From a virus: 26,200 nt of DNA. Numbering within the stretch: position 1 is the first letter of the stretch; each line of letters opens with the position of its first letter. The DNA is taken from positions 1 through 26,200 of the IMG/VR virus record IMGVR_UViG_3300030098_003263; one strand, given 5' to 3'. Positions 478 through 26,200 of the stretch are shown here, one piece after another. The notes below the pieces were generated by a model. The model was given only the letters and a program-made list of their open reading frames with translations. It made no database searches and was not told the origin of the DNA. Position numbers and translations under genes: made by a program.

Positions 478-1881
478 TTATGGTTTGAAATTAGCTCTGC
501 CTACTGCGTCACGTAACTTAAACCCGCTAGTCATTCCACCACCGCCATCAGGTTTTTTGTATGGTTTACTAAACTTACCTGGATTTCTCCATAACTCGGC
601 ACACCATGCAGCTTCATCTCTTATTACATTACGAGGTCCTGTAAATTTATCACCAGTAAATCCACTTAATTTTCTAGCAGATAGCTTACAATTTGCCATC
701 CATGCACTAGAAGGTTGTCTACCGCCACGACCTTTTGGTGGTTCTTTCTTAGGTTTCTTTTGTATAAATGCACCAAACTTTATCATGCGCATTACATCAT
801 CTAAGTAATTATTTGTCTTCTGTAAACGTTCTGTCTTAATAGTACAAGGACATTCTGCCTTATCTAACGACTTTACCTTGTCTTCCAAACTCTTACTCCA
901 ACTGTGACCTGCATCTCCACCCATCATTTTCCACATAATAAAACCCTTACTAGGTCTTTTCTTATTATCAAAGTTCTTACCCTGTGGGTCTACTGTCTCA
1001 TGTCTTCTATAATACTTGTGAATCTTCATTGCCATTGAATATGTTACAAATTGTTTATCTATTAAATGACGGTTTATTGCTTTTGTAACTTTACCGCCAC
1101 CATACCCAAACTCTGCTCGTAACTCCCTACCATACTTAGCTTCTTTTTTGACTCCTTTTGGTATCTTGTATTTTTCTATCTTAGTAAGTATGTCATCTAA
1201 TACATCTGATTTACCGAATCTTCTGGCTTGTATGGCCCTTTCCTGCCTTATAGCTCCTGCCTTGGTATCATGGCAGCCTAGAAGTCTTCGGTTCTTTTTA
1301 GCGTATAAACAATATTTACCCTTTTTACGCTCTATTATCTTTTCTACCATAGACTCAACTTCATCTAAAGTGACCTGTACACTGTTAGATTTAGCCATAG
1401 CTACATCTGTAACCTTTGCCTCTGGGTTGGCTGGATTGTCACCAACCCAAGATACGCTCCAAAGAGAAAGTTCGTTAATACGATTGTGGCAGTCGTTTTC
1501 TGAAAAACATACTTTCTCTTGGTTTGTGGCTTCACCACGGATACTACTTGCACCCGATGGTCCGTAATCTTTAATCTCTTTCCATACTTTATCATGCATT
1601 CCTATTTTATTGTGAATACCTATTCTAATCTTAACTTTACCGTTTTTAACTTTGTAAGCAAGGGGAAGCCCAATCGGCATTTCCTCATGACGGTACGAAT
1701 ATACGCCGTAGCGCATGTAAAAATCCATGGCTTCTTTGATAGTTTCTGTGGGAACCATATCGCCTTGTTTATCGACAATAGGAGCGGAGATATATGTCTC
1801 CATTACTCTGTCATTATACCACTCTGGTCGGTAGACTTTCCAACCAGTGTTCTTTTCGTCTGCCACAAATAACGCACACAT
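478..1881 (-). CDS. XkdF-like prohead maturation protease with extra C-terminal head domain
   Basis: The product is a capsid maturation protease of the prohead-protease/XkdF type, expected to cleave scaffold and capsid proteins inside the procapsid. Residues 24-155 carry the protease core: a conserved His in YRHEEMPIG (about 65), a SGASSIRG strand (109-116) with the likely catalytic Ser, and an ELSLWSVSWVGDNPAN strand (137-152). Residues 190-223 form a small KxLGxH/QxxAI-type linker motif. Residues 245-335 match a domain common in phage head proteins, ending in WKMMGGDAGHSW. The C-terminal 100 residues are basic and Gly/Pro-rich. The ATG at 1881 lies too close to the TATA box (about 1887-1894), so the GTG at 1866 may be the real, leaderless start. 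Confidence 0.85.
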   Translation of the reverse strand: MCALFVADEKNTGWKVYRPEWYNDRVMETYISAPIVDKQGDMVPTETIKEAMDFYMRYGVYSYRHEEMPIGLPLAYKVKNGKVKIRIGIHNKIGMHDKVWKEIKDYGPSGASSIRGEATNQEKVCFSENDCHNRINELSLWSVSWVGDNPANPEAKVTDVAMAKSNSVQVTLDEVESMVEKIIERKKGKYCLYAKKNRRLLGCHDTKAGAIRQERAIQARRFGKSDVLDDILTKIEKYKIPKGVKKEAKYGRELRAEFGYGGGKVTKAINRHLIDKQFVTYSMAMKIHKYYRRHETVDPQGKNFDNKKRPSKGFIMWKMMGGDAGHSWSKSLEDKVKSLDKAECPCTIKTERLQKTNNYLDDVMRMIKFGAFIQKKPKKEPPKGRGGRQPSSAWMANCKLSARKLSGFTGDKFTGPRNVIRDEAAWCAELWRNPGKFSKPYKKPDGGGGMTSGFKLRDAVGRANFKP

Positions 1882-10792: not shown

Positions 10793-10829
10793 CTTTATAT
10801 ATGGTTGCGGTCCTGAATAATTGATAAAT
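10793..10829 (+). promoter_or_regulatory. Promoter and leader of the amidoligase gene
   Basis: TTTATATAT (10793-10801) lies about 29-37 bp before ATG 10830. The leader ends TTGATAAAT directly before the ATG, a variant of the GTGATAAAC leader at three other genes. The leader's GAT matches part of the anti-Shine-Dalgarno complement. Confidence 0.6.
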
Positions 10830-11795
10830 ATGACTTATCAAGCAGGAATAGAACTAGAAGCCAAGCTCAAAAGCGGAGTGTCTCTCGACGAGGTAATCCG
10901 TGCAATTAGACAAGCAGGAATTGAAATCCGAGACGACAGATATACTCACAATGGAGATATTCCCGTCACAGGATGGAAAGTAGTTTACGACGGAACTCCA
11001 TCTCAAGACGGTAGAGATATTTGGGAATTTGTGACTAAACCAATTCACGGAGCCAAAACCATTGAAGAAATGATATTGGAAATGTGTCCAGTTCTACAGC
11101 AATTTTGTGACGTAGATAGAGACTGTGGATATCATATCCATTTCAGTATCTTAGACAAATATCATTTCAAAAGAAGAGTAGATACAACCACAAGAATGGG
11201 AAGACTAAAAGCTCTAAGAAATAAACCATCTAAATTATTCGTAGCTGAATTGATTAGAAATTATAATTATTTTCAAACTGTAATGGACAGTTTTGTAAGT
11301 CCATCAAGGAGAGGAAATGAGAGAGTTTGTGGAGGAAATGAAGCTCCTGATTATGCAGTAATGTCCACTAAGCAAGATGTGAAAGATTGGGCTACTACAA
11401 GCAATGCAGGAGCTGAAACCTTACAAGGTGAGTGGGATAGTGCAAGATACCACAAAGTTAACTTACTAGCATTGAGGAGATTTGGAACTGTAGAATACCG
11501 CCAACATCAAGGAACTTTGAACGCTACTAAAATCCTAAATTGGATGAAATTAATGGAGAGATTTACAACAAGAGCATGGGACAGAAATTACAAGGATTTA
11601 GACTGTAGGGATTTCGATGTAAATGTTGATGGATTATTTGACTTCTTAGGTTTGGGAAGATGTGACAGAAGCTTAAGAGAATACTACAGAAAGAGAGCTT
11701 CAGGATTTGGCTACCACAGGCTAGCCAATCCCGAGCTAGTAGCAAGAAGAAGAGTAGAATACGCTAGAGCATTCGCAAGATTGGGCCGAGCTTAG
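10830..11795 (+). CDS. Amidoligase (COOH-NH2 ligase, Amidoligase_2 type)
   Basis: This 321-aa enzyme belongs to the glutamine-synthetase-like COOH-NH2 ligases, which use ATP to join a carboxylate to an amine or ammonia. Family landmarks in order are GIELE (6-10), WKVVYDGT (49-56), WEFVTKP (65-71), CGYHIHFS (99-106), SPSRRGN (157-163), YHKVNLLAL (207-215) and GTVEYRQHQGT (219-229). All expected metal- and ATP-site strands appear present. The true start is ATG 10830; the upstream TTG belongs to the leader. It is the first gene of the rightward module, which also carries a class II glutaminase, a pairing known for this family. The substrate (virion protein, host surface peptide or metabolite) is unknown. 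Confidence 0.88.
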   Translation: MTYQAGIELEAKLKSGVSLDEVIRAIRQAGIEIRDDRYTHNGDIPVTGWKVVYDGTPSQDGRDIWEFVTKPIHGAKTIEEMILEMCPVLQQFCDVDRDCGYHIHFSILDKYHFKRRVDTTTRMGRLKALRNKPSKLFVAELIRNYNYFQTVMDSFVSPSRRGNERVCGGNEAPDYAVMSTKQDVKDWATTSNAGAETLQGEWDSARYHKVNLLALRRFGTVEYRQHQGTLNATKILNWMKLMERFTTRAWDRNYKDLDCRDFDVNVDGLFDFLGLGRCDRSLREYYRKRASGFGYHRLANPELVARRRVEYARAFARLGRA

Positions 11796-13300: not shown

Positions 13301-13615
13301 ATTGCACACTAGTAGTTGGGCGACTACTGAAAAAATCGCCCGTTATATTTCAACGGTAAGCATTACGCACACAACCAACAGTTGGCAAGTTTTGGATTTC
13401 GGTTGTTCCTATTTATGTGTGCGTAATGTTGAGATATATGCTGGTCATCATATAAAACTGACCAATTTACATTTCTTATATATTTGTTTAACCCATAGGA
13501 ATCAGAGAAATGGGCGACAACAACCTTATATAGGGTGGGACATATGTCCTATTAGCTCGGGTGGGCCTAGTGTGGTCATTATACCAGCCCATCCGAACAT
13601 AAAAAAGTGATAAAC
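13301..13615 (+). promoter_or_regulatory. Control region of the glutaminase gene, rich in inverted repeats
   Basis: There is no convincing gene here. A perfect 13-bp inverted repeat (CATTACGCACACA at 13361-13373, complement at 13416-13428) encloses 42 bp with an inner ACAACC/GGTTGT pair. GGTCA/TGACC arms lie near 13443-13463. A TTTAACCCATAG repeat is at 13483. The perfect palindrome GGACATATGTCC is at 13538-13549, TTATACC (about 13579-13585) may be the TATA box, and leader GTGATAAAC is at 13607-13615. Confidence 0.6.
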
Positions 13616-14554
13616 ATGTGCGGAATAGGAGGATATTACCAAACAGGTAATACAGAAGATGCCCCTAGATGGGCAAAGCAAGCTCTCAGGACAATGTGGA
13701 ATACATTAGAGTCCAGAGGAATCGATGCTTCAGGCATCGCATTTGAAAGTCCTACAGGAATTAGGCATTATAAGACAGATAAACCTGCTTACGAATTAAG
13801 TAGTTTAGGTATGGGTCTAGCATTCGGTATGAATAGAACTCCTCGTTGGGTTATGTTGCATACTAGAGCTTCAACTCATGGTAAACCAGAACGTAACAGA
13901 AACAATCACCCCTTAATGGGGAGTAAACTAGCATTATGTCATAATGGTGTTGTTTACAATAAAGATAATGTCTTACGTAAGTATAATACCTCACCAAAGC
14001 GTGAAGTAGATACTGAAGCTATCCTTGTAGCATTAAAGAACGGTGGTATAGATGCAGTGGCAAAGAATGTAGAAGGCTCTATGTCTATTTCATGGGCCAA
14101 AGGTAAGACAATGTATCTTTGGACTAATGGAATGTCTCCTTTAGTTATTGGTGAGCTATACAATGGGGATTACATGTATTCATCTACTGATGAACATCTA
14201 ATGTCCACAGGTTTGAGATTCAGACAAGTCTTTGATGCAAAACATGGACATCTTTACAAATTTACTCCAGAAGGAATGAGTGTTCACAAAACACAACTAA
14301 GAAAAATCCAGCGTCCGATATATTCATGGAGAGATTTGTCAAAGAAAACGCACACACCAAAGAAGGACACCAGGCAAACCAGCCTGGTTGTCCCAAAGGC
14401 AACCCGCAGCGAGCGTGTGCGTAATTTTGATGAATATACAGAAAATAATGAAAAGAGTGTGCATTATTTGGATGATATAGATGTAGAATGGGAGGCAGTC
14501 TATGGTGATTGGCGCTCATGGTCAAAAAAATCAAAGGAGATAAACAATGAGTAA
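13616..14554 (+). CDS. Class II glutamine amidotransferase (stand-alone glutaminase)
   Basis: This 312-aa enzyme hydrolyses glutamine to supply ammonia. ATG 13616 is chosen because the second residue must be the catalytic Cys (MCGIGGYY). Other class II residues are present: RGIDASG (34-40), HTRAST (82-87) with substrate Arg84, NNHPL (96-100), HNG (109-111) with oxyanion Asn110, and DTEAI (132-136) with Asp132. No asparagine-synthetase or sugar-isomerase domain follows. The C-terminal 100 residues are charged and unfamiliar, and residues 244-270 are encoded by a large DNA hairpin. The amidoligase in the same module is the obvious ammonia acceptor partner, though a direct complex is inference. 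Confidence 0.9.
   Translation: MCGIGGYYQTGNTEDAPRWAKQALRTMWNTLESRGIDASGIAFESPTGIRHYKTDKPAYELSSLGMGLAFGMNRTPRWVMLHTRASTHGKPERNRNNHPLMGSKLALCHNGVVYNKDNVLRKYNTSPKREVDTEAILVALKNGGIDAVAKNVEGSMSISWAKGKTMYLWTNGMSPLVIGELYNGDYMYSSTDEHLMSTGLRFRQVFDAKHGHLYKFTPEGMSVHKTQLRKIQRPIYSWRDLSKKTHTPKKDTRQTSLVVPKATRSERVRNFDEYTENNEKSVHYLDDIDVEWEAVYGDWRSWSKKSKEINNE
14347..14425. repeat. Long imperfect hairpin inside the glutaminase C-terminus
   Basis: Outer arms AACGCACAC (14347-14355) and GTGTGCGTAAT (14415-14425) enclose a strong inner stem around CCAGGC/GCCTGG (about 14366-14394, flanked by GGACA/TGTCC). It lies in frame in a non-conserved tail and looks inserted. Confidence 0.55.
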
Positions 14555-17926: not shown

Positions 17927-17977
17927 TTATTTTATAAGTTTGTTTAACCCATAGACTTACTGTTTTTAGAGAGACAG

Positions 17978-18115
17978 ACACCTTCATTTCCACTGGAACT
18001 TTTATTATATAAGTAAGAATATATATTATATAGCTAATAAGCCGCCGTACCCCTCTAAAAATTATAAAAAATTAGTAGAGACATCTTAGAATAGTTCCAG
18101 TGGAAACAAAGGTGT
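17978..18115. other. Putative replication origin: inverted ORB pair flanking AT-rich core
   Basis: The right arm AGTTCCAGTGGAAACAAAGG (18093-18112, continuing TGT) and the left arm, its near-perfect inverted copy (17978-18000, two mismatches over 23 bp), match the archaeal origin recognition box from memory. That box has core TTCCA-GTGGAAAC followed by a G-string. The 92 bp between are about 24% GC, with a TATATATTATATA-like run suited to duplex opening. It lies between converging modules. Orc1/Cdc6 proteins bind such boxes, and none is encoded here, so host initiator use is inferred. A convergent terminator or a MITE-like element are the alternatives. Confidence 0.75.
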
Positions 18116-18121
18116 GTGTGT

Positions 18122-19186
18122 CTATGTGAAGTTAGTAATTAATACTTCTGAAGTTAAAGCATTGTTACCTACTTCTATAATTGTATTAATATTATCTGCA
18201 ATCATTATTTTATATCCTACTACTGGTAGAAATTCTACTTTCTTTAACGCAGGCGTTCTTAGTTCTACAATAGAACCTAGAGGCAACCATTCACCATTAT
18301 TGATTGTAATTCTATATCCTTTAGTTGGATTCTTAAATTGTTCTACTACTAATCTTCCTATATTTTCTAATACATCAATCCTACTTGTAAGGTATTCAAC
18401 TTTCCTAGACATTACACCGTACTTAGCTATAGACCCCTCATCATTATATGTAAATGATAAATCTCTATTAGATGAACTGACTACTGTACAACTGTTTACC
18501 ATACCTACTGAAGTATAGTTAGCTAACAAACCATCCGAAATAACATTAGACTCATCTAACGAAATAGTCAAATCAGCTTTAACATCATTATGTAAGTGGT
18601 CTGGTTGGAATACTTCAAAGTTTTTACCAGCTTTTATAGCGTAATAATATGGTAAATAAGAATGTAAAGGATGGGCATCATCTGTAGTAATATCTACCAT
18701 AAAGTTTATACAGTTATCAATAAAATCTTTTCGAGTTGCATAACCACTAAAGTTCATAGTGTCATCTAAGATTATACTACTACCTTGTGTCATTTTACTA
18801 ATAGAAGTATTTTTATAATTAGCAACTTCAGCTATTGCCATATACAAATCCATACCTTGAAAGTCACCTTGTTTAAAATTGATAATTTCACTGTTAGCTA
18901 ATTCAGTAATATAATCATAAGCTACAAAACTAAAATTACCTATTGATGGATTTATAACTCTTATAATACCAACAAACTCTTTATTTGTAATAAGGTCGCC
19001 TTTACCATATTTAATTATTACTTCTGCACCAATCCTAATCTTTTCTAAAGCATCAACAGAAGTACATAAACAAGTTGCAGACCTTGCAGAATTTACTTTA
19101 GCATCAATATTCAACTGCGTAACAAATGGAAAAGGCTCACCATCTATTGTAACATCAATTACTAATTCATTAGAAGTTGCTGACAT
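18122..19186 (-). CDS. Tail hub / baseplate hub-like protein
   Basis: This 354-aa protein resembles the gp27/gpD-type hub that joins tail tube and fibres. IGAEVIIKYGKGD and FVGIIRVINPSIGNFSFVAYDYITEL (near 52-95) give the typical 'G..V.i....FvG.I......g...l.a.dy..eL' pattern. A late stretch, WLPLGSIVELRTPALKK, matches the second hub barrel. It is the last gene of the tail operon, just before the origin. The start overlaps the adhesin stop (TAATG). Confidence 0.75.
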   Translation of the reverse strand: MSATSNELVIDVTIDGEPFPFVTQLNIDAKVNSARSATCLCTSVDALEKIRIGAEVIIKYGKGDLITNKEFVGIIRVINPSIGNFSFVAYDYITELANSEIINFKQGDFQGMDLYMAIAEVANYKNTSISKMTQGSSIILDDTMNFSGYATRKDFIDNCINFMVDITTDDAHPLHSYLPYYYAIKAGKNFEVFQPDHLHNDVKADLTISLDESNVISDGLLANYTSVGMVNSCTVVSSSNRDLSFTYNDEGSIAKYGVMSRKVEYLTSRIDVLENIGRLVVEQFKNPTKGYRITINNGEWLPLGSIVELRTPALKKVEFLPVVGYKIMIADNINTIIEVGNNALTSEVLITNFT

Positions 19187-25234: not shown

Positions 25235-25959
25235 TACGGAGTCACCATTCCTGTACCAAAGCCACCAACAGCCCTTGCCATTGTCATATCTCTGTCCAAC
25301 CTTTTGTTGTCTTTTAATATCTTCATTGCCATGTCTTCAAACTTCTGAGACTTAGTAGAATTATCCATCGAATCATCTCCCTCTGGCATTAAATTTAAAT
25401 CATCATTCATTGCAATCGTTGCTGCTGTAAGATATATTGTTGCTAACTTTATGTCTTTAGGAGTTGTAGCAGTTGCATATCTATACTTTACATAAGCAGA
25501 AACACCTGCTGGAGCGCTGTTAAGCATATTATGTATAGCATAATTTTCTATGTAGATTATACCACGTTCTGTGTCTACCCAGAAATCTTTGTCAACAACG
25601 TCTGTTACTGAACTTCCCATTGTTTTACTTGCCACATAATCCACATATGCACTACCTTCCCAAATCTTAAGAGTGTCTCCACTACCTCCTGCTAATGTTA
25701 AAATTGGATAATGTGCTAATTGTATCCTACCTCTGTCATTTATGGCTGTAGAACGAACAGTTTGTACTCTTACTCTTTCATCTGTTACAGTTATAGCGTT
25801 AGCTGTAGACCATGCGTGATTTGTAAGTTGTTCGACACGTGCTTCTGCCATCTCAATAAATGCTTCAACCTGACTAATAGTAGGTGTAGTATCAGTTGCA
25901 TGAAATGCACTAACTTGTAAAAAAGCAGAAACGTCTCCGTGTGAACAATAACTTACCAT
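25234..25959 (-). CDS. Head-tail connector (gp6-like adaptor)
   Basis: This 241-aa protein has the gp6-like connector plan: an N-terminal helix (SQVEAFIEMAEARVEQLTNHA), then strands LAHYPILTLAGG and DFWVDTERGIIYIEN, then helical KLATIYLTAATIAMN. The ring sits below the portal. It is coupled to its neighbours by TAATG overlaps at both ends. Confidence 0.75.
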   Translation of the reverse strand: MVSYCSHGDVSAFLQVSAFHATDTTPTISQVEAFIEMAEARVEQLTNHAWSTANAITVTDERVRVQTVRSTAINDRGRIQLAHYPILTLAGGSGDTLKIWEGSAYVDYVASKTMGSSVTDVVDKDFWVDTERGIIYIENYAIHNMLNSAPAGVSAYVKYRYATATTPKDIKLATIYLTAATIAMNDDLNLMPEGDDSMDNSTKSQKFEDMAMKILKDNKRLDRDMTMARAVGGFGTGMVTP

Positions 25960-26200
25960 TATAATATCCTACTGAGTGCCGTGTTCATTAACTTTTCGCC
26001 TGTAGTTGCTACAACCATTCCGTTCATGTCGATTGGTTGTCCTGCCATATTCCAGCCTATTGCTCCGACTGGTAATGTGGTGTATCCCTGCTGTGTTGCC
26101 AATGGTGGAGGTCCTCCGCCATTTGCTGTATAATATTGTTCTCCATTAGCCAACTGGTCTATCTGTGGAGGTGGCATCTGCCAAGGTTGTGGTGCTGCTG
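25959..26200 (-). CDS. Pro/Gln/Gly-rich structural protein, N-terminus cut by window edge
   Basis: The frame is open to the right edge, so the ATG at 26177 is probably internal. The visible part is rich in Pro, Gln and Gly (QMPPPQIDQLANGEQYY; GGGPPPLATQQGY) and ends VVATTGEKLMNTALSRIL. Position upstream of the connector suggests a head protein, perhaps a decoration protein or the tail of a capsid-related protein. A confident family call is not possible. Confidence 0.6.
   Translation of the reverse strand, partial: AAPQPWQMPPPQIDQLANGEQYYTANGGGPPPLATQQGYTTLPVGAIGWNMAGQPIDMNGMVVATTGEKLMNTALSRIL

Follow-up and report, generated by a model that had tools for sequence, protein, structure and literature searches.

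To our knowledge, little is known about how replication starts in most archaeal tailed viruses. In archaeal chromosomes, an orc1/cdc6 gene adjoining the origin is common, not universal, and so is not defining alone. The established layout of archaeal origins consists of opposed origin recognition boxes (ORBs) around an AT-rich element, with the MCM helicase loaded between them (PMC6742236). Haloarchaeal virus BJ1 encodes an Orc1/Cdc6-like protein (PMC2194725), and Thermococcales viruses with MCM helicases have neither Orc1/Cdc6 nor classical ORBs, recognition by a virus-encoded modified MCM having been proposed for them (PMC12934983). Marine archaeal virus contigs from the ETNP have also been reported, and the accessible part of that report describes no replication origin (PMC5474096).

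The locus described here spans positions 17970-18123 of a 26.2-kb stretch of viral DNA (IMG/VR record IMGVR_UViG_3300030098_003263, positions 1 to 26,200; hereafter the window). It resembles the Orc1/Cdc6-ORB origins of Pyrococcus, Sulfolobus and haloarchaea in its ORB (GTTCCAGTGGAAAYRAAGG) and in having opposed ORBs around an AT-rich stretch, but its carrier is a virus with no recognizable orc1/cdc6, its ORB tail is GGTGTSTGTSTCT instead of the usual archaeal GGGGT, and it has just two ORBs together with a conserved CGCCG island. The present virus resembles BJ1 in being a tailed virus of archaea with a connection to initiation of the Orc1/Cdc6 type, but BJ1 has its own homologue and the present virus none that is recognizable. 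As in the Thermococcales MCM viruses, an Orc1/Cdc6 gene is lacking, but the situation is reversed here, with classical ORBs present and no MCM found. With the ETNP contigs and other archaeal tailed viruses it shares a marine origin, a size of about 30 kb and a Phage_portal family protein. The window terminase is distantly archaeal-virus-like, with PhiCh1 and phiH at 25%. Our search of the open-licence literature found neither a virus with classical ORBs but no initiator nor a prior report of a virus group assigned to Marine Group III (MGIII) archaea. We propose, with a probability of roughly 0.8, that the locus serves the virus as its replication origin, having arisen by mimicry or capture of the chromosomal origin of MGIII, and that it recruits host Orc1/Cdc6 and MCM. 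Its features are as follows.

17941 to 17956, plus strand: intergenic motif TGTTTAACCCATAG, copy five, probably an early-block element of promoter type, directed toward the origin
17970 to 17999, minus strand: left ORB with MGIII-type tail, GTTCCAGTGGAAATGAAGGTGTCTGTCTCT on the minus strand, tail outward
18000 to 18036, no strand: AT-rich segment by GC content (11% GC), likely DNA-unwinding element
18037 to 18053, plus strand: GC island ATAAGCCGCCGTACCCC, near-invariant across the virus family, common to MGIII origins, single copy per viral genome
18054 to 18093, no strand: right core segment, about 30-34 bp longer than its MGIII-origin counterpart
18077 to 18087, inside the right core segment: AGAGACATCTT, degenerate inward-facing ORB-tail-like element, present in most relatives
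18094 to 18123, plus strand: right ORB with MGIII-type tail, GTTCCAGTGGAAACAAAGGTGTGTGTGTCT, tail outward

The arms of the inverted repeat (17970-18010 and 18083-18123) are complementary at 33 of 41 positions and form the longest inverted repeat in the window. The sequence-only reading had described two inverted 23-mers with two mismatches around a 92-bp core of about 24% GC; the 23-mers AGTTCCAGTGGAAATGAAGGTGT and AGTTCCAGTGGAAACAAAGGTGT are indeed identical at 21 of 23 positions, and the interval between them measures 93 bp at 23.7% GC. The window contains TTCCAGTGGAAA exactly twice, both times within the element, and exact inverted 13-mers no more than 200 bp apart number three in the window compared to 0.05 per shuffled window. 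The AT-rich segment is close in length to the A-rich stretch of MGIII origins (about 38-40 nt). The motif TGTTTAACCCATAG beside the origin is kept in some relatives, not all.

The identification of the 23-mers as ORBs in the sequence-only reading was borne out by a genome-scale scan. The 21-mer pattern GTTCCAGTGGAAAYRAAGGNG was scanned through 84,980 prokaryote species genomes, mostly bacterial, and gave at least 119 loci, compared to about 2 expected by chance (our own arithmetic from the pattern length). Among the matches listed, 117 of 119 carry an archaeal label, including Halobacteria, methanogens, Thermoplasmata, Nitrososphaeria, Bathyarchaeia, Asgard and others. An Orc1/Cdc6 gene, detected with a profile grown from a Nitrosopumilus protein confirmed as Cdc6_C/Cdc6_lid, lies within the same 8-kb tile at 60 of the 119 listed loci, mostly at most 600 bp away. 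Since chance co-tiling is only about 1% (an estimate assuming one or a few genes per ~2-Mb genome), the pattern behaves as an ORB sequence should and, judged by sequence, the viral 23-mers are Orc1/Cdc6 ORBs. The two exact-ORB loci without an archaeal label, L093 and L156, come from bins named 'bacterium DX1.bin10' and SAR202, and may be archaeal contigs misbinned as bacteria. Among viruses, the canonical GGGGT ORB was found in just 1 of 2.9 million contigs; this contig, L306 (75 kb), has a single copy of canonical GTTCCAGTGGAAAYRAAGGGGT at 11012-11033 and is the sole IMG/VR contig with it.

The viral boxes carry AAGGTG, whereas 117 of the 119 listed loci carry AAGGGG. AAGGTG is found among these loci only in L093 and in L045, which is ordinary chromosomal DNA of the Marine Group III euryarchaeote CG-Epi1. 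By tracing the MBL-fold gene next to the L045 ORB across the MGIII family, we found an inverted ORB pair with a GGTST tail at one syntenic locus in eight MGIII genomes (G001, G003, G005, G006, G008, G009 and G014 at the same place, and G015 at the syntenic place), that is, in 8 of the 21 MGIII genomes examined, which are mostly incomplete. Across all 21 genomes the tailed ORB is confined to the MBL-fold locus, which we predict from these sequences to be the MGIII chromosomal origin. This predicted origin is not adjacent to orc1/cdc6, and no ORB was found on looking beside MGIII orc1.

The similarity between the viral element and the MGIII locus extends over its whole length: tail, inverted pair, A-rich stretch, AATAAGCCGCCG island and their order are alike. 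The host form of the GC island, AYAAGCCGYCG, is present with slight variation at 7 of the 8 MGIII loci and degenerate in L279, and the version of the virus family is AATAASCCGYCGWAYC. The 12-mer AATAAGCCGCCG, lying after the A-rich stretch, is common to virus and MGIII loci; of 500 shuffles, none reached this match for one host locus and 7 did for another, and 11 of 500 reached the maximum when all eight host loci were considered. Scored against a DNA profile of the eight MGIII loci, window 17970-18123 reaches 56 bits (E 5e-16), with both ORBs and the core covered, and the best archaeal ORB locus outside MGIII reaches 22 bits. The viral copy is not exact, because its ORB-to-ORB inner gap is 94 bp compared to 60-64 bp in MGIII, and we therefore treat it as a variant that would work like an MGIII-type origin. 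The extra 30-34 bp lie to the right of the island, before the right ORB, and contain the inward-facing tail-like element. A helical phasing common to host and virus ORB pairs was also considered, and was discarded because their spacings (83-87 and 117 bp) share no convincing phase.

The non-canonical tail, the inverted pair and the core island are found together at the MGIII chromosomal locus alone, so the host can be narrowed down to this group, and the archaeal host suggested in the sequence-only reading is upheld. The likely host of the virus, as read from its origin, is thus the uncultured MGIII archaea, which it would be expected to infect. Base composition offers weak independent support, with a GC content of 37.2% for the virus and 37.3% for MGIII, and a tetranucleotide signature nearest to MGIII for 4 of the 5 viruses tested. 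An unsampled MGIII relative within Poseidoniia/Thermoplasmatota could instead be the host of a true Orc1/Cdc6-dependent viral origin. This is in line with the few Marine Group II (MGII) genomes that have AAGGTG ORB-like sites (e.g., TTCCAGTGGAAAAGAAGGTG), with the tetranucleotide similarity of the viral relative G152, which is equal for MGII and MGIII, and with a terminase search of 146 genomes of the class, where the 21 MGIII genomes yielded no relative of this viral protein and the one match, outside the 21, was weak (28%). But such a host is unlikely, given that tail, inverted pair and island jointly match MGIII only. The MGII inverted pairs have a spacing of 160-163 bp, GGGG tails and no CGCCG island, an origin type that the window lacks, and a profile of six such pairs scores just 21 bits on the window. 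In a wider Poseidoniia scan, most MGII sites carry GGGG, and the few with AAGGTG differ elsewhere. The inverted pairs of MGII genomes (L327-L332), with their constant 160-163 bp spacing, are likely MGII chromosomal origins. Neither an integrated or binned viral relative, sought through this terminase search (0 of 21 MGIII genomes positive), nor a tRNA, of which the window contains none, gave a link to the host.

The gene content of the virus is consistent with dependence on the replication machinery of an MGIII host. No orc1/cdc6 gene adjoins the element, and the Cdc6_C domain is absent from 11 viral relatives. Pfam scans covered the larger window proteins and 75 proteins encoded by three relatives of 31-34 kb, and revealed no Orc1, MCM, primase or polymerase; the matches obtained were to terminase, capsid, tail/lectin, methylase, amidoligase, glutamine amidotransferase, PAPS reductase and recombinase-like families. 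The PHROG families of the same 75 proteins likewise include no Orc1, MCM, primase or polymerase among the 25 of 40 families listed. The remark that no initiator gene is visible thus holds both for the 26.2-kb fragment and for the longer relatives. The evidence for this absence is strong but not complete, because many of the proteins match nothing (most viral proteins are without any family match) and all the viral contigs are classed as linear, and a novel initiator could be hidden among the unmatched proteins or, with a lower likelihood, an initiator gene could lie in a genome part that the linear contigs lack. The window itself is a fragment: it starts and stops within the structural module (1-407 and 25959-26200), and it lacks the major capsid gene and the genes around it, which the 31-34 kb relatives have. 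Its early block contains genes for an Amidoligase_2 (10821-11795) and a class II glutamine amidotransferase (13607-14554), homologues of which are found only in G152 among the long relatives compared.

These data suggest that the virus replicates via the host's own initiator protein and not one of its own. Host Orc1/Cdc6 would bind both inverted ORBs, and strand opening would take place in the 11%-GC segment, which separates the left ORB from the GC island; the host MCM helicase and the host replisome would then be loaded, and bidirectional theta-type replication would follow, the virus bringing no recognizable initiator, helicase, primase or polymerase. The inward tail-like element within the viral 30-34 bp addition reads GASAYACCTT. 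A speculative extension, which we consider doubtful, is that this marine tailed virus family, having no replication gene, re-engineered the MGIII origin so that the inward tail of the insert provides an extra Orc1 contact, letting the viral origin fire more readily than that of the host and compete with the chromosome for Orc1/Cdc6.

The element makes a whole viral cis-acting unit readable (ORBs, unwinding region and island) and pairs it with the origin predicted for a single uncultured host group. It points to an MGIII virus group, and in the other direction it yields a prediction of where MGIII chromosomes start replication and of their unusual ORB. An origin sequence used as a host barcode may serve as an assignment principle where a virus has neither CRISPR nor tRNA links. 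The element also sets up a testable contrast between an initiator-less virus dependent on host Orc1/Cdc6 and viruses with their own Orc1, MCM or Rep protein.

The exact ORB pair is present in at least 33 IMG/VR viral contigs, and at least a dozen or so further contigs have slight variants around the island; none of the annotated phage records matches the element. Among 36 distinct copies, arms and island are almost invariant and the remaining core is variable. Of 34 contigs, 32 have a spacing of 120-122 bp, and counts in eight long viral contigs gave two ORBs and a single island every time. Terminase identity within this set of viruses goes down to 53%. The element occupies three genomic positions in the family: beyond the tail gene (the window, G148, G149, G151 and G152), between a gp10-like gene and the counterpart of window 478-1881, which may encode a head-maturation protease (G147 and G150), and among early genes (G154). 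A neighbouring gene can therefore not explain its conservation. The sequence-only reading had placed it between converging gene blocks, which is accurate for the window and four relatives, but this position is not general because the element moves within the virus family. Its broader interpretation as an archaeal-type origin, with inverted ORBs around an AT-rich core, is supported, and from this conserved architecture we infer origin activity.

The pattern of conservation also bears on two readings in which the element would not start replication. As viral genomes multiply in an infected cell, their ORBs, two apiece, might titrate host Orc1/Cdc6, so that the element could be a decoy that blocks host replication, or an Orc1-responsive site that regulates transcription; it does lie in intergenic DNA, and Orc1-family regulators with non-initiator roles are described in the accessible part of one report (PMC9738581). 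But a decoy needs no inverted pair, constant spacing, AT-rich segment or CGCCG island, all of which are kept, one copy of the element per genome makes a weak sponge, and a regulatory site is hard to reconcile with three genomic contexts and no single associated gene. We regard this reading as very unlikely. The other is an RNA-level or terminator element, i.e., a hairpin ending converging transcription units. The RNA fold of the element is strong (-51.2 kcal/mol, z -9.1), as expected of any long inverted repeat, and in the window it does lie between converging blocks. The loop, however, would be about 90 nt, the arms differ consistently in almost all viruses (TGAAGGTGTCTGTC in one and YAAAGGTGTGTG in the other), which is the opposite of stem maintenance, and the MGIII arms diverge from each other yet keep the ORB. 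There is no Rfam match, and in G147 and G150 the element lies between same-strand genes. We consider this explanation highly improbable. The viral replication origin of MGIII type is thus the reading we retain.

GC skew in the window changes sign at the element, as a cumulative maximum, following gene strand. In the MGIII host contigs the maximum is at the locus in G015 and near it in G014, with none in G001 and G009. Skew is not diagnostic of an origin here, since it is confounded by gene strand. As the element is at the cumulative maximum where genes converge, forks leaving it would meet the window genes head-on.

Two further repeat families were observed in the window. TGTGTGCGTTA repeats are found at 409, 460, 12028 and 16342 on the plus strand and at 1880, 1933 and 23233 on the minus strand; they are also present in G152 and absent from the other long relatives examined. 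Five intergenic copies of TTTAACCCATAG lie on the plus strand in the early block (11957, 13487, 14648, 16850 and 17943), preceded by G or TTTG and some of them just upstream of start codons, with the last copy reading toward the origin. The motif also occurs in G152, with a similar one in L189, and is probably an early promoter-type signal.
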